A stretch of DNA of 64,000 bases from Brevundimonas albigilva (GTDB lineage Bacteria > Pseudomonadota > Alphaproteobacteria > Caulobacterales > Caulobacteraceae). The notes below the pieces were generated by a model. That model ran no database searches. It was not told the DNA's origin and worked only from the letters and a program-made list of their open reading frames with translations. Within the stretch, counting starts at the first letter, position 1, and every line of letters begins with the position of its first letter. Positions 2 to 12,289 of the stretch are shown piece after piece. Location: the NCBI RefSeq assembly GCF_023503965.1, contig NZ_CP097298.1:682001-746000 (forward strand). The letters run 5' to 3'. Position numbers and translations under genes: made by a program.

Positions 2-1141
2 CGTCGCGCGATCCTGGCTTTAGGACTCGGCGGACTCGCCACGGGACAGAAGGTCGACGACGGCTTCACCACCCCCGGTGCCCTCTGGAAGGCCGCCGCG
101 CTCCATCGCCTTTTTCAGGCGGCCCCAGTTTTCGGCCCGCTAGGTCAGGTCACGGTCGATCGGCTTGAAGACCTTGTGCAGGACTGTCTGGCGCCGGAGT
201 TCCGGCGCGACGCGGGGCGAGAGCGCGCGACACGGACCTTGGTCCTCAAACATTCCGACTTCCAGTCTCCCTATGTGGCGATCGAGCGGTTTCTCGAGCG
301 TTTGATCGAGGCGGGCATTCTCTATTACCGCAAGGGCGATCACTGGCTCGATCTGGGGTGGGCGAAGCGTCTGCAGGCTCACGACGATGCGCGTCGCCGG
401 CAAGAAGACGAGGATCGCCGCCGGCGGGATCGGGTGAACGAACTCGACCGACGCCTGGGTGCGATCGTCGACCTCGCCAAGGATCTCGACCTTCCTGCTC
501 TGGCGTCTTGGCGCGCAACGCCGCTGCAGGGCCTCGAGTCGTCCCCGCAACAGGCCGCGATCGCGGGAGACGCGACCTGGACCGCCCTTCGGGAAGGGCT
601 GGCCGGCATCATTGGCATGCTGGAGGGCGGCGTTCCGGCGCGCGATCTCTTCGGGCTTCCGCTGGAGCACGAACGCGACGAAGCCGTCCGTGAGAGCGAC
701 GCCATCGCCGCTCAGGAAACGGCCGCAGAGGCGGAAGCGGTGAAGCGGGCGGCCGAGGCACGCGTTGGCCGCCTACACATGGCGGCGGTGTCTGTTCTGG
801 GAGACGGCGCCCTGGCCTGGCTGGACGATCAAGAGGCCGGCGAGGCGTGGCGCGACCTGGCGTTTCGCGATGATGCGGGGCTGGGTCAAGGTTTCCAGGC
901 CCTGGAGCGCATCCGCATCACAAGGGAGGCCGCGCGGCGTGCGGCGGCTGAGCGCGAAGCCCTGCACGACCAACTCCGCAAGGCGGCGCGGCGGGTGTTC
1001 GACGATGAGCGAAGAGCCGCATTGTTCGTGAACGCGGCTCGCCCCGATCTCGGCCTACTGTCGCCTCTTCAGTTCTGCATCGACCAACGGACGCTTGCCG
1101 TCTGTCTTTCGCTCCTGCCCGGCACCCGGCGCAACCGATGA
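2..1141 (+). CDS. Hypothetical coiled-coil protein, 5' end outside window
   Basis: The frame is open from the first bases of the window to the TGA at 1139, so the gene starts upstream; the GTG at 176 is only an internal start candidate. The visible part is about 379 residues. Around 230-370 it has a winged-helix-like stretch (AIERFLERLIEAGILYYRKG), then two long Arg/Glu/Ala-rich coiled-coil segments, and it ends with a short block reading PDLGLLSPLQF that resembles the toxin-binding tail of MbcA/ParS/Xre antitoxins (weak, by eye). I do not recognise the family. It precedes the methyltransferase on the same strand with a 184-base gap, so a shared system is plausible but unproven. Confidence 0.6.
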   Translation, partial: RRAILALGLGGLATGQKVDDGFTTPGALWKAAALHRLFQAAPVFGPLGQVTVDRLEDLVQDCLAPEFRRDAGRERATRTLVLKHSDFQSPYVAIERFLERLIEAGILYYRKGDHWLDLGWAKRLQAHDDARRRQEDEDRRRRDRVNELDRRLGAIVDLAKDLDLPALASWRATPLQGLESSPQQAAIAGDATWTALREGLAGIIGMLEGGVPARDLFGLPLEHERDEAVRESDAIAAQETAAEAEAVKRAAEARVGRLHMAAVSVLGDGALAWLDDQEAGEAWRDLAFRDDAGLGQGFQALERIRITREAARRAAAEREALHDQLRKAARRVFDDERRAALFVNAARPDLGLLSPLQFCIDQRTLAVCLSLLPGTRRNR

Positions 1142-1325
1142 CCCTCCCTCGCCGCCACGACGCACCGGTCAGGCTGGAGCCCGTCCCTGATCGGCTTCCC
1201 GCTCGAGCCGGAATCAGGAGATGCTGGACCTCGGCCAATCGCGGTCGGTCTCCGCGCTTGCGCCGGCCACCACAACTGAGATCAACTCAACCCGAGCGCC
1301 TGATCCACACTGTAGAGGGGAGGAC

Positions 1326-4300
1326 ATGCTAGACACCTCTCTCGCGGATTGGCTGGACCGTCTGGGATACGACACGGTCGGAGACGCCCTGCTTCGTGAG
1401 CCGGGCGAGATCGGTCGACGTCCCTACGCGGCCGAACTGCACGACCTGCTGGACCCTCAGGGGGATTTCGGCATGGCGGCGATCTTCTTGGTGGAGAGCA
1501 CCCCGACGATCTGTTTCGCCGCGGGCGCTGCCTTCGCCGACAGCGCTCATATCGACGCCGTCCGTCAGCGCCTCTGGAACCAGAATCTCGCCTCGGCCCT
1601 GGTGGTGCTGGACGAGGAAGAAGCCAGAGCCTTCTCCATTCCCAAATGGCGTCGTCAGCAACATCCGGACGTGCTCAACCGCGATGACGCGCGACCCGAC
1701 GGCATCTGGTCGGCGGCCGAGGTGCAGTCCTCTGATCTGCAGCGCCGTCTAGAGGATTGGTTCGACCCGAGCCGCCGGGTTGATCGGCATCTGTTGCGCC
1801 AGTTGTCCCTGTCGGTCACCGCCCTGACCAGCGGAGATCGTCCGCTCATCGCCTCGCAGCTCGAAGCGCAGATGCTGCTGGCCCAAGTACTGTTCGTCTC
1901 CTACCTCGAGCACCGCGGCATCGTCGGTGGCGCGTACCGGGAAGAGCATGGCCTGCGGACGCTCTCGGATCTGGTCAGCAGCGGCGACGGCGCCGGTGTC
2001 GACGGCCTCATCGATCGCCTCAAGACCGACTTCAATGGCGATTTTCTAGAGCCGGACGAAATCCGCTGGAGCGACCTCGACGGCGGGGTTCTGGCCGTCG
2101 TCGGCAAGCTGCTCGCGCGCGTCGATCTGAGCACGGGGCAACAGGATTTCTGGAACTACGACTTCAGCCAGATCCCGGTCGAACTGCTGTCCGGCATCTA
2201 CGAGACCTTCCTGCAGGACGAGCGAAAGGTCGACGGTGCCTACTATACGCCCCGGGTGTTGGCCGAGCTCGCGGTCGAGCAGGCGTTCGAAGGACTAGAA
2301 GACCTTTCGGATATCCGCATCTACGATGGGGCCTGTGGGTCCGGCATCCTGTTGACCACGGCGTTTCGCAAGACGATCGCCTATGAGCAGGCCAAGCTCG
2401 GGCGTTTCCTCGACATCGCGGAACGTATCGCGCTTCTGAAGCGCGCGATCTTCGGGGGCGACATCAATCCGATCGCCTGTCGCGTCACTGCCTTCAGCCT
2501 GTACCTGTGCCTGCTGGAACGTCTGTCGCCGCCGGATCTGATCAATCTGCAACGGGATCACGATTGCAGACTTCCCCGCTGATCGGCCTCAACATCGTTG
2601 AGGGGGCGGTGGACGGCGACTTCTTTTCGCCGAGCAATCGCTTCGCCTCGGGACAGGCCTTCGACATCGTCATCTCCAATCCGCCCTGGCGGGAACTCAA
2701 ACCTGGCGAAGGCGAGACGGCAGTCGCCTGGGCCCAAGAGACGCAAACCCGGCTGCCGCATCGCCAGATCGCGGCGGGGTTCGCCGCAAAGACGCTCCAA
2801 GCAGGAAAGCAGGACGCCCGGATCGTTCTCATCCTCCCGACCTCCCTGATCACCGCCCCGACTAATGCGGATTTCCTGCGCCAGTTCACGGTGCGGGCCA
2901 CCTTGGACCGGATGATCAATCTCGCGGACTTCCGGCGCTTGCTGTTCGCCCAGGCCGAACATGCCTGCACCATCGTGCGGGCGACCAATCGCCCCGCCCT
3001 GGAAAACGATGAGGTCCTAGGAAACTTCGAGTACTGGGCGCCGAAAGTCGACGTCAGCTTCGCCTTCAACCGTCTGACCCTGCACGACTACGATCGGGTA
3101 GAGATCGCACGGGATGCGCTTGTCGAGGACAACGCCGTCCTGCGCCGCCGCTTCTGGGGCGGGCGTCGCGACGAAAGTCTGCACAACCGGCTCAAGAGCC
3201 TGCCCAGCCTCGGCGCGGCGATCCGCGACGGCGGCTGGATCGCCGCCAAGGGCTACCACATGAAGGACGGCGGCAAGACCGCGTCGCCCGGGCCGCTTCA
3301 GGCCTACGATTTCCTGCCCACCCAAGCCCTGAACTCGGACTCGCCTGTCGTCGATCTACATGCCCTGACCCGGCTTCCGGTCGAGCGCGGCGTCGCCAGC
3401 CACGGCGAGATGGCCATGTATGAGGGGCACCGCATCCTCTGGTCAGACGGTACGTCCGTACAGATGGAGATCCGGGCCGCCTACGCCTCGGCCCCCTTCT
3501 GCTTCCCGTCCGGTGTCGGCGGCATCAGGGTCAAGGATGACGAAGGTCCGCTGGCACGTTTCCTAACCTGCTATCTGCGATCCAGCCTGGCCAAATACTG
3601 GCTGATCCTCACCGGTTATTCGGCGGCGGCGGAGCGCGCCCGGGTGACCCTGGCGGAAATCCGCTCCCTCCCCTTCATTCTTCCTGCCCGGCATCCGGAT
3701 CGGGTCGCCGCGTCCGCCGCTCTGGAACGCGCCAGCGCCTACTCGAAGACCTGAGCGCGCCTGACAAGCAGCTGTTCGCCAGCGCGCGGTTCGAACAGGT
3801 CCGTCCGGAGATGGACGAGATCATCTTCGACTATTTCGGCCTGTCTCAGCAGGAACGGGCGGTCGTGCGCGATATGGTGGAATTGGTCGCCGAAAGCCTG
3901 CAGCCGACCAGCTACGATGAGCTTCTGACGCCGCTTCAGCATGTGGCGACCTTCGAGGACATGCCCGTCTACATCCGGCAACTCGACGCGACCTTGGCAG
4001 CCTGGGCCGGCGATGGTCGCGGTCGCGCGAGCGCGCAAGTGATCGACAAGCATGGAGATCGGACCCCTCTCGATATCGTCCATGTCAGCTTCACCGGTGC
4101 CGACGGAGCCGCCAAGCGCAGCGCCCCTGTGAATGAGAGTATGCGCGTCATACTCAAGGCGATCGCCTCGCAACTGGCCGAAGGACGGGCGATTGATTTC
4201 TTCGCCATGCCGAATGCCCTGCTGGTGTGGGGGGACCGATGTCTTCGTGGTCAAACCCGCTCGCAAGAGGTTCTGGACTCGAAGCGCAGCACTGCGCGAC

Positions 4301-4369
4301 GCCGACGATATCGTTGAACTGCTTGCGGGCGCGAAAAGCTCGGTCGATGCCGGAGCCCGCCGCCCTTGA
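1326..4369 (+). CDS. Large N6-adenine DNA methyltransferase (type IIG / PglX-like), frameshifted as read
   Basis: Transfers a methyl group from SAM to adenine in DNA. Start ATG 1326 follows a strong Shine-Dalgarno (GGGGAGGAC). The N-terminal helical part contains LFVSYLEHRGI and later GAYYTPRVLAEL, as in Eco57I/PglX-like enzymes. The SAM motif DGACGSG lies near residue 335 and the catalytic NPPW near residue 452. Three single-base shifts break it: a missing C in the run at 2574-2577 (between SAM and NPPW motifs), a missing base near 3738, and an extra G in 4229-4234. After correction one protein of about 1,014 residues results, ending at 4369. The nuclease-like gene overlaps its stop. The C-terminal third probably recognises the target. 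Family call is firm; its role in a defence system is inferred. Confidence 0.85.
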
Positions 4370-5034
4370 AGCGCATCATCGATGCGCCGGATGCGGCGCC
4401 GACCCTGTTCCCCGCGCCCGACCTGGCCCAGCTGCTGGCCTATGTTCGCGCCGTCTGGGATGAACTCCGGCTCCTGTCTCCCGTCTGGTGGAGTGCTCAG
4501 CGAGAGACGGTTCTCGTCGCCGGATTCTTTGAAGCCCTGACCAACGACGAACGGCTGATGCACCATGGCGTCGGATTCGGACACCTCATCCTCGAGGCAT
4601 CGAAGGTGAAGCTGGACGCCACCGGCATGCCCAAGATCAAGGGGCGCACCGATATCGTCTTTCTCCATGGCTCTCACATGGGTCCCGCGTTGGTCATGGA
4701 GTTTAAGCGCCTGAACAACGGATCGAGCCTACGCGGCCACTACGTCAAGGAAGGGGTGCGCCGCTTCGTCACCGGTCAGTACTCGCCGGAGGCGGACCTC
4801 GGGATGATGGTAGGCCTAGTGCTCGGTTCCGTCGCGACGGAGAGGGCCGCGCTGTTGAGCCATTTCTCAAAGCCTGCTGTGGTGGCTGCCATACAGAGTA
4901 AGGCGATGTCACACCCCGCCTATGGCGACCCCTCCCAAGACACCCCGTCCGTGGATTTCGACACCTTGCACGACCGGGCCGCCGGCTGCCTCGCTGCGGA
5001 AATTCGAGTGGGCCACATTCTGCTCGAGCGCTAG
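4366..5034 (+). CDS. PD-(D/E)XK nuclease-like protein coupled to the methyltransferase
   Basis: 222 residues from a TTG start that overlaps the methyltransferase stop (TTGA), which implies translational coupling. The core reads KIKGRTDIVF, then about ten residues later ALVMEFKRL: an Asp followed by E-x-K on the next strand is the PD-(D/E)XK catalytic arrangement. The N-terminal half is helical (LAYVRAVWDELRLL) and gives no other domain I recognise. The likely role is the cleaving or DNA-sensing partner of the methyltransferase, as a split restriction-modification pair. It could instead be a catalytically idle DNA-binding subunit. Reading frame and motif are clear; activity is inference. Confidence 0.7.
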   Translation: MKRIIDAPDAAPTLFPAPDLAQLLAYVRAVWDELRLLSPVWWSAQRETVLVAGFFEALTNDERLMHHGVGFGHLILEASKVKLDATGMPKIKGRTDIVFLHGSHMGPALVMEFKRLNNGSSLRGHYVKEGVRRFVTGQYSPEADLGMMVGLVLGSVATERAALLSHFSKPAVVAAIQSKAMSHPAYGDPSQDTPSVDFDTLHDRAAGCLAAEIRVGHILLER

Positions 5035-5146: not shown

Positions 5147-5770
5147 ATGAGCCGCTATCTGATCCCGTTGAGCGACTACAATCGCATCTATCAGGTCGCC
5201 CACGGCGTCAGTCGGGCGTTCGGCGGTTCGGAGAAGGGCTGCATCTTCTTCGCCTGCGTCGGCGCCCTGATCCTAAACAAGCAGTACCGGATCAAGGCCT
5301 CCGCCGTGGCCGGCGCCTTCGCCTTCTGCGCCAACGACACGCCCGAGATGGCCTTCTTCGGTGAGCAACGGGGCTCAACGATCACCTCCTCGGAGGATGG
5401 CTTTCATATGTGGATCCAAACGGAGAGCCATATCATCGACTTCATGGCGCCGATCTTCCCGGAGGCCTTCGCGGACAAGGGACTGACGGTTCCCCGCAAG
5501 ATGTTTCAGCGCCCGCTAAGTACCGAGGCGGCTTCGCTTGACGCCATTGCAGCGCCCGGCGACTTTTACGCCATGCCGAACCTGGAGCTTACCGACCGAC
5601 TGCTCGACCGCTTTCTGTCTCGCCCCTCCAGCGGCGATCTTCTGCATGTCGCTGAGACATGGTTCGGCCATCCCCGTAAGCCGCAGATAAAGGCGCTCGA
5701 AATGGGCGACAGCGAGGGTGATCGCTATAGCCTGACGCTGCCGACCACGGTCGCGAGCGGTTCGTGGTGA
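5147..5770 (+). CDS. DUF2026 family protein
   Basis: 207 residues. The N terminus (LIPLSDYNRIYQVAHGV), the conserved Cys pair region GCIFFACVGA and the block IIDFMAPIFPEAF are the conserved blocks of DUF2026 proteins as I remember the family. The pattern of a Cys followed by His (FHMWIQ) and Asp (IDFMAP) is reminiscent of a papain-like or transglutaminase-like catalytic triad, but this is a reading by eye. It lies 112 bases after the nuclease-like gene on the same strand and is followed by a terminator at 5801, so it may be the last gene of the module or independent cargo. Function unknown. Confidence 0.7.
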   Translation: MSRYLIPLSDYNRIYQVAHGVSRAFGGSEKGCIFFACVGALILNKQYRIKASAVAGAFAFCANDTPEMAFFGEQRGSTITSSEDGFHMWIQTESHIIDFMAPIFPEAFADKGLTVPRKMFQRPLSTEAASLDAIAAPGDFYAMPNLELTDRLLDRFLSRPSSGDLLHVAETWFGHPRKPQIKALEMGDSEGDRYSLTLPTTVASGSW

Positions 5771-5849: not shown

Positions 5850-7855
5850 CTATTCGGCCGCGAACGAATAGGCGTCGCCGTCCGGCGGCGTGACCGCCTC
5901 GTCCGTCTCCGCCGCGTCCGACGCGGTGCGCAGAACCGGAGGCAACCACCCCTTCCCTTCCACCAGCCGTTCGGCGGCCTCGGCCATGTCCGTCTTCCGG
6001 AACCCGGCGATCCGCCCGGCCTCTTCGGCGCCCGCCGCCTCGGTCACGGCCTCGACCACCTTGGCCTTGGACACGCGGCTGAAGTAGCTGGCGGCGGTGG
6101 CCGACCACGTTCCGGCCATGTCCAACCCGACCGCCGTCGCCAGCGTCTCGGCCTGCGCCAAGGCGCCGGTCCGCCGGTCGTGCGGATCGCGCACGGCGTA
6201 GAGGCCGACGCCCGCGCAACAGGCCAGCAGATCGAGCAGATCGGAGCCTAGCATCGGGGCCAGAACGGCCCAGAGGTCTTCCGCTCGCTCGGGCAGCCGC
6301 GCGCCCCACGCCTCGCACCGATCCGAGACCCGGCGTCCGGCGGGACCGTCGTCCACCCCCGGGGCCAACCGCTCCAGCCCCGTGAGCGAGAGCCGAAGCT
6401 GCAACGGCGTCCACGTCCCATAGGTCGGATAGAAGACCTGCAGGGCCAGCGCATGGACCACCGTCACGAGGGCCACGCCCGGATCGGCCTGCACCGCGTC
6501 GCGCAGCCCCATCGTCCGGTGCGCCGTGAGGTCGATGAGCAGCCGGTCGGACAGCCCCGGCCCCTCGTCCACCGCCTCGACCTCTCCGACCCTCCGGTCG
6601 GTTTGGGGGAAGAGTCTTCGGACTCGTCCTCGGCCGAGGGCGACGGCGGCTCGACCACCGCATCCTCGGCCCGGACCAGACCGCGCTCGAACCGGGCCAG
6701 CCCGTCGTGCCCGAGCAGGACCATGACCCCGGCCCTCGCCTTCACCTCGGCGGGATAGTGGAAGTCCGGGCCGAAGGCTTGCAGTGCGGCGTCGATCTCC
6801 TCCAGCCGAGCGTCCACGTCGGGCGGCAGCACGTCCGCCGCGTCCGTCTCGGAAACGAGACGGTCGTACTCTTCCGACAGAGCCACGATCTGGGCGGCGT
6901 CCGCCTCCGACCGCTCGACCGCGACCGGATAGACCCGACCAAAGGCCGACACCTCCGTGTAGTCCGCGCACGGCTCGGCCCATTTCCAGCCCTCGCGCTC
7001 GCGGGCTTCGTCGGCCAGACCGGCCAGCTTGTCGGCGACCAGCCGGTCCAGCAAACCGGCGTCCTCCAGCCAGCCGCCGCCGTCCTCGGTGAACAGGTCG
7101 CGAAGGACCCCGCCGCCCGCCTCCTCATAGGCCTCGACGCCGACGAACCGAACACGCCGGTCGCTGACCGCCACCTTGGTCTCGGTCATGGCGCGGCGGA
7201 TGGCGTAGGCCGGGGTATGGGGTCCGATCTGCTCGAACACCTGCCGTTGCCGGTCCTGATCCTCGCTGACGCAGAAGGCCATCAGCTGATCGAGCGCCAG
7301 ACGTTCCTGCCGATAGGCGGCCACCAGCTCCGGGGCCGCCGCGCCGAGGCGCAGCCGCTGCCGCACGATCTGGGCGGACACCCCGAACCGCGCCCCGATC
7401 TCTTCAGGACCGTAGCCCTTGTCCACGGCCAGCCGCTGGAAGGCCTCGAACTGGTCGGCGGGATGCATGGCCTCGCGGGTGATGTTCTCGTCGAGGCTGA
7501 TCTCGTGGGCGTCGTTCTCAACGTCCACGATGCAGCGCACCGGATGGGTCCGCTTGATCGCCTTCCGCTTCGCCAGCAGCCGAAGCCCCTGACGGCGCCC
7601 CTCGCCGATGGTGACGAGATAGTTCCCGGTCGGGACGCCCTCCCCGTCCCGCTCGATCTCGACCACGGGCGGCTGCAACACCCCCTTGGCCTGGATGGAG
7701 GCCGCGAAGGCCTCGATGGTCGCCGCGCTGTGCGGCGTCTTCTTCCTCGCGTTCTTCGGCGAGGCCTTGAGCCGGTTCAGCGGCACGATCACCTCCGCGC
7801 CGTGCTGCGGCGCGATCGCCTCGGTCGGGGCGGTTTCGATGGATTGAGCAGTCAT
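5850..7855 (-). CDS. ParB/RepB/Spo0J-like protein of an integrative element, frameshifted as read
   Basis: About 668 residues. Start ATG 7855 has a strong Shine-Dalgarno (AAAGGAGG, 5-base spacing). The N-terminal ParB domain shows VIVPLNRLKASPKNARKK, the CTPase-like motif region GEGRRQGLRLLA, and ENITREAMHPADQFEAF. A helix-turn-helix follows (GPEEIGARFGVSAQIVRQRL). The long C-terminal region is acidic and typical of ParB-like proteins on alphaproteobacterial integrative elements. The frame breaks once near 6585-6610 (G run at 6605-6609) and continues to the stop at 5850. No parA gene is visible, so it may regulate or act in element maintenance rather than classic partition. Confidence 0.85.
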
Positions 7856-8250
7856 GTCTGCCTCCTTTGGGCAAGGGTTGCAGGCACGCGAACTGCGCGC
7901 CTGAAACCCTGCCCGTCGGCGAGACCGGGGTAGCAAGGGCCAGGGCGGACCGGCCGGAGGGGGATCGCCCGACCTGCACAAGCCGGCCCTCCATTCGATG
8001 ACGCCACCCATCGCCGGCGCGGAAGGTCGGGGAGACCGGCCGGTCCGGCGGCGAAGCCGCTTCACCCTGGCCCGCGCGAGGGCGGAGCCCTTAGCCCAGC
8101 TTTTCCAGCCCGTCGCAGAAGGCGGCCATGCCGGCCGCACAGCGCCGCGGTGACATAGAAACTTGTGCGTAGTTGGCTGAGGACGTGCGTGAACCCAATT
8201 GCGATCGCCCTCGCGGGAGGGTCAGATGAGCTCTACAACCGGGAGGCGTC
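7856..8250. other. 395-base gap between divergent island genes
   Basis: Holds the upstream regions of the ParB-like gene (-) and of the 8251 gene (+), each with a good ribosome binding site. On the - strand a short open stretch ending at 8091 (MAAFCDGLEKLG then stop) may be the tail of a lost small gene. I see no other gene, repeat or RNA. Confidence 0.4.
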
Positions 8251-10700: not shown

Positions 10701-10994
10701 ATGGCCCAGACGACCCCGCCCCTGCGGCGCACGATCAAGAAGCCTGAACTGCACCAGATGGTGCCGCTCGCCGACAGCACCATCTGGGAGATGGAGCGCC
10801 GCGGCGAGTTCCCGAAGCGGTTCCTCCTGACGCCCCGCTGCGTGGTCTGGGACTTGGCCGAGGTCGAGGCCTGGCTAGAGCGGCGCCGCAATCAGCCGAT
10901 CCGCCGCGCGACGCCGCCGGACGTCCGCCGGCGCGTCAGCCGGCCGGTCAGAACTTCGGATCGAAACGAGGCCCCTCTCCCTCCGGCACACTGA
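10701..10994 (+). CDS. AlpA-type phage/island regulator or excisionase
   Basis: 97 residues, start ATG 10701 after GAGGAGAG. The core (MVPLADSTIWEMERRGEFPKR, then VVWDLAEVEAWLERRR) is the MerR-like winged helix of AlpA proteins, which activate or assist excision by P4-type integrases. It is convergent with the integrase and its last 47 bases overlap the integrase 3' end, an arrangement that ties the two. It likely binds near the integrase promoter or attachment site and controls excision. Confidence 0.85.
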   Translation: MAQTTPPLRRTIKKPELHQMVPLADSTIWEMERRGEFPKRFLLTPRCVVWDLAEVEAWLERRRNQPIRRATPPDVRRRVSRPVRTSDRNEAPLPPAH

Positions 10995-12201
10995 GCACCG
11001 GCGTGAAGGTCCGCCCCGCCTCCCAGGCCTCGACGGCGTCCGACCACTGCTGCGCCATGTGCCGTCGCTGCATCTCGAACTCCGCCTTGTTGTAGACGCC
11101 CCGGGACGACCGCTCCTCGTGGGCCAGGCCTTTCTCGATCCAGTCGGAGTTGAAGCCCATCTCGTGCAGCAGGGTCGAGGCCGTCCGCCGCAGGTCGTGC
11201 ACGGTGAACGGCTCCAAAGGCAGCCCTCGCTTCTTCGCCAGCTCGGCGATGGCGGAGGTCACGCGGTTGAAGGTCGCCCGCGACATCGGCGCGTCCGCGT
11301 CGTAGCGCGACGGCAGGATGTACTTGGAGTTCCCCGCCCAGGTCTTCAGGGCGATCAGGATGTCGAGCATCTGGGTCGATAGATAGACGTTGTGGGGCCG
11401 CGAGCGCTTCATCCGCGCCGCCGGGATCGACCAGACGGCGTTCTCGAAATCCGCTTCCGGCCAGACGCCGTCCTGCAGTTCGCTCTTCCGAACCATGCTG
11501 AGCAGGATGAACTTCAGTCCGAGCCGGATGGTCGGCAAGGTCGCCACCTCCCCGAGAAGGCCCAGCATGATGCGGATCTCGCTCGGCGATAGGCTGCGAT
11601 CACGCGGCCGGAAGGTGGCGATCGACGCGGGCCCGACGCCGTCCGCCGGATTGTCGATCTTCTCGCCGTGCAGAATGGCCCAAGCGTAGATCTGTTTGAC
11701 GATGTCGCGGACATGGATCGCCGTCGCCGGTGCGCCGCGATCGACGATGGTCTTGCAGTGCGCCCGGATGTCGTCCGGAGTGATCTCGCTGAGCAGGCGG
11801 TTTCGCCACTGCGGCAGCACCTCGCGATTGAAGATCGACCGCCGCATGTTCCGGGTGCTGTCCGCCATAGGGGCGGTGTCCATCCAGCGCTGCGCGACAT
11901 GCTCGAAGCTGCGCGCCTCCTGTAGACGGCGCTTGGCGCGCTGCTTCTCCAGAGCCGGCGATACGCCGCTCGCGATCGTCCGCTTGATCTCGAACAACCG
12001 CTCCCGGGCTTCAGCCAGGCTGAGACCACCCCGCCCGTAACGGCCCAGGGTCAGCGTCTCGCGCCGGCCATGGAAGCGATAGTCGTAGCGGAACGAAATC
12101 GCCCCGCCGGGCGAAATATAGGCGTACAAGCCGTCCCTGTCGGTACTCTTGTAAGGCTTTGATTTTGGTTTCAAATTCTTTAGGGCGGCGTCGGTAAGCA
12201 C
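10948..12201 (-). CDS. int: P4-type tyrosine integrase of the island
   Basis: I choose the GTG at 12201 because GAGGAGA lies 8 bases upstream and the protein then starts VLTDAALKNLKPK, the usual start of the family; an upstream GTG at 12219 is also in frame. 417 residues. An N-terminal DUF4102 arm-binding domain (DGLYAYISPGGAISFRYDY) is followed by the SAM-like core-binding domain (near 95-190) and the catalytic domain with Arg in SMVRKSEL, HDLRR, GLAHEE and the nucleophile Tyr in GVYNKAEF. The 5' end faces the 3' end of guaA, 290 bases away, which marks this as the right edge of the island. Confidence 0.92.
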   Translation of the reverse strand: MLTDAALKNLKPKSKPYKSTDRDGLYAYISPGGAISFRYDYRFHGRRETLTLGRYGRGGLSLAEARERLFEIKRTIASGVSPALEKQRAKRRLQEARSFEHVAQRWMDTAPMADSTRNMRRSIFNREVLPQWRNRLLSEITPDDIRAHCKTIVDRGAPATAIHVRDIVKQIYAWAILHGEKIDNPADGVGPASIATFRPRDRSLSPSEIRIMLGLLGEVATLPTIRLGLKFILLSMVRKSELQDGVWPEADFENAVWSIPAARMKRSRPHNVYLSTQMLDILIALKTWAGNSKYILPSRYDADAPMSRATFNRVTSAIAELAKKRGLPLEPFTVHDLRRTASTLLHEMGFNSDWIEKGLAHEERSSRGVYNKAEFEMQRRHMAQQWSDAVEAWEAGRTFTPVLSVPEGEGPRFDPKF

Positions 12202-12289
12202 GGTAAAATCTCCTCGCACCGGGCAGGATCGAAATCGGGCGGTTCGAGGTCGATATTTCTCAATCTTTCCCGCGTCTTGTGCGGAAAGA

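Follow-up and report, generated by a model that had tools for sequence, protein, structure and literature searches.

Closest described systems

Type IIG restriction–modification (R-M) enzymes of the MmeI, BpuSI and DrdV kind fuse an adenine methyltransferase to a target-recognition region; according to passages in PMC4081073, restriction and modification both rely on that single module, and specificities within the MmeI family have become widely divergent. In the excerpted text of PMC4752239, three IIG-like systems (AchA6III, OspHL35III and MexAMORF1192P) carry the endonuclease on a separate peptide and comprise translocases together with PLD, GIY-YIG or HNH nucleases. This report concerns a locus of Brevundimonas albigilva that has features of both: a gene for an N6-adenine methyltransferase of about 1,000 residues followed, on the same strand, by a gene for a 222-residue PD-(D/E)XK nuclease. 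It lies in a window of 64,000 nucleotides (G000:C1:682001–746000, on contig NZ_CP097298.1), which was studied together with 14 kb on its left side (L002). The two genes form a real two-gene module, and the pair is probably a two-gene R-M system whose nuclease acts in trans.

The methyltransferase resembles a type IIG enzyme in joining its adenine methyltransferase to a recognition region, and differs in that its chain holds no conserved nuclease motif, the nuclease is a separate gene and the recognition region is less diversified. With AchA6III, OspHL35III and MexAMORF1192P, it shares the layout of a methyltransferase/recognition protein without a nuclease and an endonuclease on another peptide; here, however, the nuclease is of the PD-(D/E)XK kind, and, regulators apart, no third gene recurs in most loci. 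PglX/BrxX proteins of BREX are also comparable in structure, and the available part of PMC12707154 notes that these are now annotated as methyltransferases, having earlier been entered as type IIG in REBASE. The PglX models, however, score only 20.7–26 bits against cut-offs of 400–900 (on a broken methyltransferase piece), and no recurring multi-gene set accompanies the pair in 84 loci, pglZ and brxC not having been searched for by profile. DISARM and ARMADA have helicases beside the methyltransferase (for ARMADA, as stated in an excerpt of PMC12458937); here, no family apart from regulators and a transposase-like gene occurs in more than 6 of the 84 loci, helicase profiles not having been run. 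The first-pass annotation set the locus apart from BREX, DISARM and type I R-M, and for the methyltransferase and the nuclease this view finds support. A type III system, whose restriction subunit combines helicase and nuclease, is a poor match, since the downstream protein is about 210–250 residues long and its model consists of the nuclease fold only.

Ordinary two-gene type II systems pair a gamma-class adenine methyltransferase with a separate restriction enzyme of fixed specificity, and the present pair appears similar in each respect. Most type II methyltransferases are, however, about half the length of this one, which also has C-terminal parts resembling those of BrxX and an additional domain at its N-terminus, and the nuclease falls outside every family library searched. 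Passages in PMC4081073 list gamma-class methyltransferases as companions of many type II enzymes, such as TaqI, HincII and AhdI (type IIH). The same passages describe the small subunits R.BspD6I2 and BtsIA of type IIT enzymes, likewise small PD-(D/E)XK proteins, for which a larger partner can be required; that partner is itself a nuclease, whereas here it is a methyltransferase. In the open-licence PMC literature, no paper was found on a gamma-methyltransferase paired with a PD-(D/E)XK nuclease without a translocase, and the excerpts cited here contain no description of the present pair.

Linkage and distribution of the pair

Among the best 80 of 544 confirmed alignment matches to the methyltransferase in genome contigs, the nuclease gene lies directly 3′ of the methyltransferase gene in 79 loci; in the remaining one (L065), the contig ends inside the methyltransferase. 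Conversely, anchoring on the nuclease gave 19 loci from other genomes, plasmids and viral contigs (L010–L015, L017–L025 and L032–L035), of which 18 have the methyltransferase directly 5′, the exception (L015) being a nuclease fragment only. These two counts are not independent, because the rows of the methyltransferase query alignment came from nuclease-bearing loci and the window—the query was therefore not blind to the nuclease—and because five of the 19 places anchored on the nuclease also appear among the loci anchored on the methyltransferase. The first-pass annotation had stated beforehand that genes lying apart in most genomes would speak against a module; methyltransferase and nuclease lie together. 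Their reading frames touch as that annotation described, the TGA of the methyltransferase and the TTG of the nuclease sharing four bases (TTGA, 4366–4369, plus strand), and an exact 4-base overlap is also obtained in 59 of 84 relatives when the nuclease start nearest the methyltransferase stop is taken.

The pair is sparsely but widely distributed. Even sampling finds the nuclease in 7 of 385 genomes from the class and in 6 of 398 from the phylum, both counts including the source genome; the pair is thus present in roughly 1%–2% of the genomes sampled. A scan of genome contigs with a single nuclease sequence gave no match. Going by record titles, methyltransferase loci come from Pseudomonadota, Planctomycetota, Cyanobacteria, Acidobacteria, Verrucomicrobia, Nitrospinia, Dadabacteria and Rhodothermaceae; many are metagenome bins, and Limnoglobus roseus is a complete chromosome. 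Viral contigs hold 11 methyltransferase loci, with the nuclease in seven (L116, L117, L119–L121, L123 and L124).

Two side observations concern particular copies. On the conjugative IncP plasmid pRSB223 (L012), the pair adjoins a class 1 integron, with the methyltransferase in two overlapping frames. In three further loci, a second, distantly related methyltransferase frame follows soon 3′ of the nuclease (L088:9563–12538, L090:10425–12725 and L107:9726–13265).

The nuclease

The nuclease gene is intact (4366–5034, plus strand). E47, D96, E112, K114, Y126, R133 and Y139 of its 222-residue product do not vary across the 85 aligned rows (82 distinct sequences), the first four forming the putative catalytic set, and H202 and H217 are kept in 83 of the rows; relatives are about 210–250 residues long. 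In an AlphaFold2 model made with 28 sequences (pLDDT 85.7, pTM 0.85), E47 opens a helix and D96 immediately precedes a strand; the strand after that carries E112-x-K114 and leads into a helix and a further strand. This is the order of elements in the PD-(D/E)XK motif, and the model thus predicts a PD-(D/E)XK core within a restriction-endonuclease-like fold, in agreement with the D…ExK core that had been read from the sequence at first pass. VIA-align 2 ranks OkrAI first (Z 8.1, 143 residues, 3.7 Å) and BamHI second (Z 7.4, 145 residues, 4.0 Å), with many restriction enzymes and nucleases lower; the alignments with these two span nearly the whole nuclease, at 11%–14% identity. The type IIT subunit R.BspD6I2 aligns over 121 residues (Z 5.2). 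Only structures that the fold searches listed are counted as evidence.

By sequence, the nuclease stands apart. Its profile finds no restriction enzyme in PDB at E ≤ 1, and a match to Tn3/gamma-delta resolvase (E 0.002) was taken as chance, because the fold and the invariant residues fit PD-(D/E)XK. For 28 members, NCBIfam and PHROGs give no match, and Pfam and PADLOC only single weak ones (best E 0.011); the nuclease therefore has no covering model in any of the four libraries. In 17 plasmid records, it is labelled ‘hypothetical protein’ in five and, in 12 near-identical records from Pseudosulfitobacter, ‘Fis family transcriptional regulator’.

The methyltransferase

Three successive frames of the methyltransferase match the PADLOC model PDLC03623 (REase_MTase_IIG; E 8.6e-114, 2.3e-76 and 3.1e-7), and Pfam N6_Mtase and Eco57I are above cut-off, which upholds its first-pass description as a large N6-adenine methyltransferase akin to PglX and type IIG enzymes. 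Since the same PADLOC model matches all 28 members tested, the description of the system as ‘undescribed’ does not hold for the methyltransferase and applies to the nuclease alone. Linking the two corrects their annotation: PADLOC counts the methyltransferase as a single-chain type IIG enzyme, and its partner bears the label of a hypothetical protein or of a Fis-family regulator.

The structure was modelled on an intact relative from Acidocella (L070; 1,012 residues, pLDDT 85.2). CamA gives the top structural score (Z 29.5, 491 residues, model residues 282–840); residues 1–919 of BrxX align to model residues 151–854 (Z 24.4), residues 160–896 of MmeI to 151–857 (Z 22.9), and DrdV to 26–840 (Z 22.1). 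Model residues 1–150 occupy the place of MmeI's nuclease. Across residues 1–145 of 81 methyltransferases, no aspartate, glutamate or lysine is conserved at the 85% level, and a profile of the N-terminal region found no relative among PDB sequences, the N-terminal fold alone not having been searched. The idea that this domain is a dead copy of the nuclease was rejected (hhalign probability 0.1%). The ‘type IIG REase-MTase’ label thus claims a nuclease that the chain does not display, and the lack of a conserved nuclease motif in the N-terminus suggests that cleavage would be supplied in trans.

Conservation of the recognition region

Recognition regions were located by the extents of the structural alignments. 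To compare them, identity within each 120-residue window was expressed relative to catalytic-core identity, pair by pair and on each family's own numbering. For the MmeI-type control (25 of 28 loci, length 850–1,100; 93 pairs with core identity 0.60–0.95), windows 541–841 have medians of 0.49–0.63 of core and a minimum of 0.30; for the BREX PglX control (three sequences, core 0.86–0.92), windows 521–881 stand at 0.24–0.57 of core. The present family behaves otherwise: in 200 pairs with core identity 0.75–0.95, windows 561–761 have medians of 0.93–0.97 (minimum 0.82) and windows 721–841 a median of 0.87 (minimum 0.77). Its most variable stretch is 801–921, with medians of 0.69–0.76. Pairs are not independent, but the 81 methyltransferases fall into 67 clusters at 90% core identity. 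The correlation between nuclease and methyltransferase identities was not used as evidence, since the pairs share ancestry. No clear swaps of the recognition region are seen among close relatives of the present family, whereas the PglX trio has them.

These comparisons are consistent with either one target for the whole family or targets that drift by small steps. We propose, and only tentatively, an R-M family spread over several phyla, in which a nuclease-less BrxX/type IIG-like methyltransferase works with a separate PD-(D/E)XK enzyme and target specificity is frozen. If so, members in widely separated bacteria may all share one DNA target for marking and cutting, and a single methylome would predict the specificity of the remaining members; the family would also test the idea that specificity diversifies where a recognition module is shared and not elsewhere.

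A possible mechanism and its rivals

In the proposed mechanism, the large protein would use its own target-recognition region to mark one fixed sequence in host DNA with N6-methyladenine, and the small PD-(D/E)XK endonuclease would cut incoming DNA that lacks the mark. The overlapping stop and start codons may couple translation of the nuclease to that of the methyltransferase, so that the nuclease would not be made without its protector, and in many relatives an upstream regulator may add control. Adjacent genes and catalytic residues kept throughout the alignment are what a two-gene type II system would have. We favour, with some reserve, the possibility that the nuclease finds the methyltransferase's target sequence on its own, like the nucleases of ordinary type II systems, because the recognition region has not diversified as in MmeI and PglX, and both proteins would then be tied to one target. 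The divergence that PMC4081073, in the passages available, ties to a shared module is absent here, which likewise points to two separately recognising proteins.

Some results weigh against this reading. More distant methyltransferases, beyond the best 80 of the 544 matches, may lack the nuclease. One viral locus (L118) has room for a nuclease and none was found there, the methyltransferase matching positions 5–918 only of the family hidden Markov model (HMM); the other nuclease-less viral loci lie at or near contig ends (L122, L125) or are a distant match (L126). Open nuclease frames also stand beside broken methyltransferases: these are split in L010, L012 and L018, lack the N-terminal half in L013 and, among the best 80, are split in L054 and L062; the window copy is a further case. 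A nuclease acting freely beside a broken methyltransferase would be expected to damage its host, except where coupling keeps it silent or the breaks come from faulty assembly, and such loci accord with a nuclease that depends on the methyltransferase or on its translation. As to the fold, Foldseek found no match for the nuclease in PDB at E ≤ 0.001, and VIA Z scores of 7–8 are at the level that the tool calls common; they are only suggestive, though the residues and the kind of matches agree. Lastly, in 268 more distant pairs of methyltransferases (core identity 0.60–0.75), windows 561–841 have medians of 0.83–0.89 and minima of 0.53–0.58, so that the lowest pairs reach the medians of the controls, and a slow drift of specificity is possible.

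In 4 of the 19 nuclease-anchored loci, an open nuclease frame lies next to a broken or truncated methyltransferase; such pairs could also belong to a split machine of the type IIG or type III-like kind, in which a nuclease without specificity of its own cuts only when docked on the site-recognising methyltransferase. The type IIG/BrxX layout that begins at residue 151, preceded by an additional N-terminal domain at the position of the MmeI nuclease, is what such a machine would look like, and those N-terminal ~150 residues may be the docking platform; the nuclease, at about 210–250 residues, is suitably small, and IIG-like systems with a separate nuclease exist, as the excerpted PMC4752239 indicates. 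A shared module should, however, free specificity to diverge, as it has in the MmeI-type and PglX controls, and among close relatives this has not happened. The near end-to-end alignment of the nuclease model with OkrAI and BamHI also tells against docking, for those enzymes need no partner, and we regard a split machine as rather unlikely. A role outside restriction appears more improbable still. CamA, the highest structural match (Z 29.5, 491 residues), is an orphan regulatory methyltransferase, and a recognition region conserved among close relatives would suit a CamA-like epigenetic adenine methyltransferase, with the nuclease serving elsewhere, for example in repair or plasmid maintenance. 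Near-obligate pairing with an intact PD-(D/E)XK enzyme does not suit it, nor do copies on plasmids and viral contigs, patchy presence (7/385 and 6/398) and WYL- and MerR-like neighbours; together, these give the pair the look of a mobile defence gene set rather than of housekeeping. An R-M system with its nuclease in trans remains the reading we prefer.

The copy in the window

The first-pass annotation did not notice that the methyltransferase frame is broken. In the assembly, the gene at 1326–4369 is split over four open frames, as is seen both with a family HMM built from 81 relatives, which crosses them at positions 3–421, 421–818, 819–983 and 981–1016, and with tblastn. All four pieces are on the plus strand. 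The first (1326–2582; PDLC03623 positions 7–416) carries the N-terminal domain, the helical domain and the S-adenosylmethionine motif DGACGSG, and is 48% identical to a relative from Ciceribacter (tblastn); its ATG start at 1326 is preceded by a AGGGGAGG stretch, and an alternative start lies at 1221. The second (2585–3754, within the open frame 2387–3754; PDLC03623 420–814, Pfam Eco57I) has the NPPW catalytic motif and the target-recognition region. The C-terminal helical part forms the third (3790–4236, within 3541–4317; PDLC03623 835–929, and tblastn with L011), and the C-terminal end the fourth (4226–4369, within 4133–4369; tblastn frame 2). By tblastn, all 11 intact relatives show the shift from frame 3 to frame 2 and seven of the 11 show the frame-1 piece, while the L034 match stays in frame 2 (26% identity); with L011, the best relative, the frame changes fall near 2577–2585, 3739–3790 and 4226–4236.

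Whether these breaks reflect decay bears on the window copy and leaves either reading of the family in place. The copy may be a decaying, non-functional remnant, although we do not put this first: three frame changes in 3.0 kb are denser than the breaks in the genome's TonB-receptor genes, a ParB-like gene at about 5850–8140 also looks frame-broken by eye, and broken copies are found on plasmids too (L010, L012). Against decay, every conserved catalytic residue is retained in the window's nuclease, and frame breaks are numerous throughout the assembly. By eye, the 43 TonB-receptor matches of the source genome (~38 genes) include five adjacent fragment pairs in different open frames, whereas the 101 such matches of four congeners include no adjacent fragment pair outside one open frame, which points to assembly indels. 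The source assembly is a single contig of 3.21 Mb with a completeness of only 89.04%, and given this and the genome-wide breaks, assembly indels are at least as likely as decay. Apparent losses of genes in this assembly are accordingly not to be trusted.

Neighbouring genes

The first-pass annotation had included a third, upstream gene in the module, for a coiled-coil protein that it could not place. Window positions 2–1141 are the C-terminal part of a 588-residue open reading frame (ORF) that starts to the left of the window (L002:13375–15141). In 18 records, plasmid relatives of this protein are named ‘competence protein CoiA family protein’ (five) or ‘hypothetical protein’ (10), or are nameless (three), so that by its relatives' annotation it can be placed as CoiA-family-like; it has no Pfam match, and the only hint of the winged helix seen at first pass is a weak PADLOC BrxA match (E 0.003). 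No relative of it was found at E ≤ 1e-3 in any of 110 other loci (104 distinct places, with flanks of at most 10 kb and some contigs short), the single match being in L016, a locus retrieved with the CoiA-like protein itself. The three-gene module was therefore rejected, and only the methyltransferase–nuclease part of it stands. It had also suggested that further components may lie on the left; no further conserved component was seen there.

Regulators are the most frequent neighbours upstream of the pair. Of the 84 loci, 19 have a MerR-like family, whose Pfam match (MerR_1, E 0.002) stays below cut-off; 12 have a divergent WYL family, of which the one member tested exceeds the Pfam cut-off (WYL, E 7.7e-9); and 10 have another, helix-turn-helix-like family, recognised by eye and without a Pfam match. 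The window has no regulator ORF of these families between 1141 and 1326. A transposase-like protein of ~570 residues lies upstream in 10 of the 84 (L052, L059, L060, L062, L064, L066, L068, L077, L078 and L080), nine of which have the WYL regulator; the one member tested matched the InsA zinc ribbon weakly, below cut-off (E 0.00017), and the protein could be a transposase or else an additional component in the WYL subgroup. A conserved third gene was rejected, these regulators and the ~570-residue protein being the only recurrent neighbours.

The remaining observations concern the surroundings of the window copy. Just 3′ of the pair lies an intact gene for a DUF2026 protein (5147–5770; Pfam E 5.9e-51), followed on the minus strand by the ParB-like gene (5850–8140; Pfam HTH_ParB E 0.00018, just under cut-off), which by eye seems to run on in another frame at 5850–6983, another apparent frame break, and further on by an integrase (10948–12219). 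To the left of the window, an AbiEii toxin gene (Pfam E 2.1e-35) and its AbiEi/DUF6088 partner (E 8.6e-27) form an abortive-infection-type pair (L002:4676–6563), and relaxase (Pfam E 1.4e-11) and MobC (E 6.7e-9) genes at L002:6350–7859 make the region look mobilisable. Just left of the CoiA-like gene, a nucleotidyltransferase-domain gene overlaps a HEPN-domain gene (L002:11977–13121), the two being a probable toxin–antitoxin pair.

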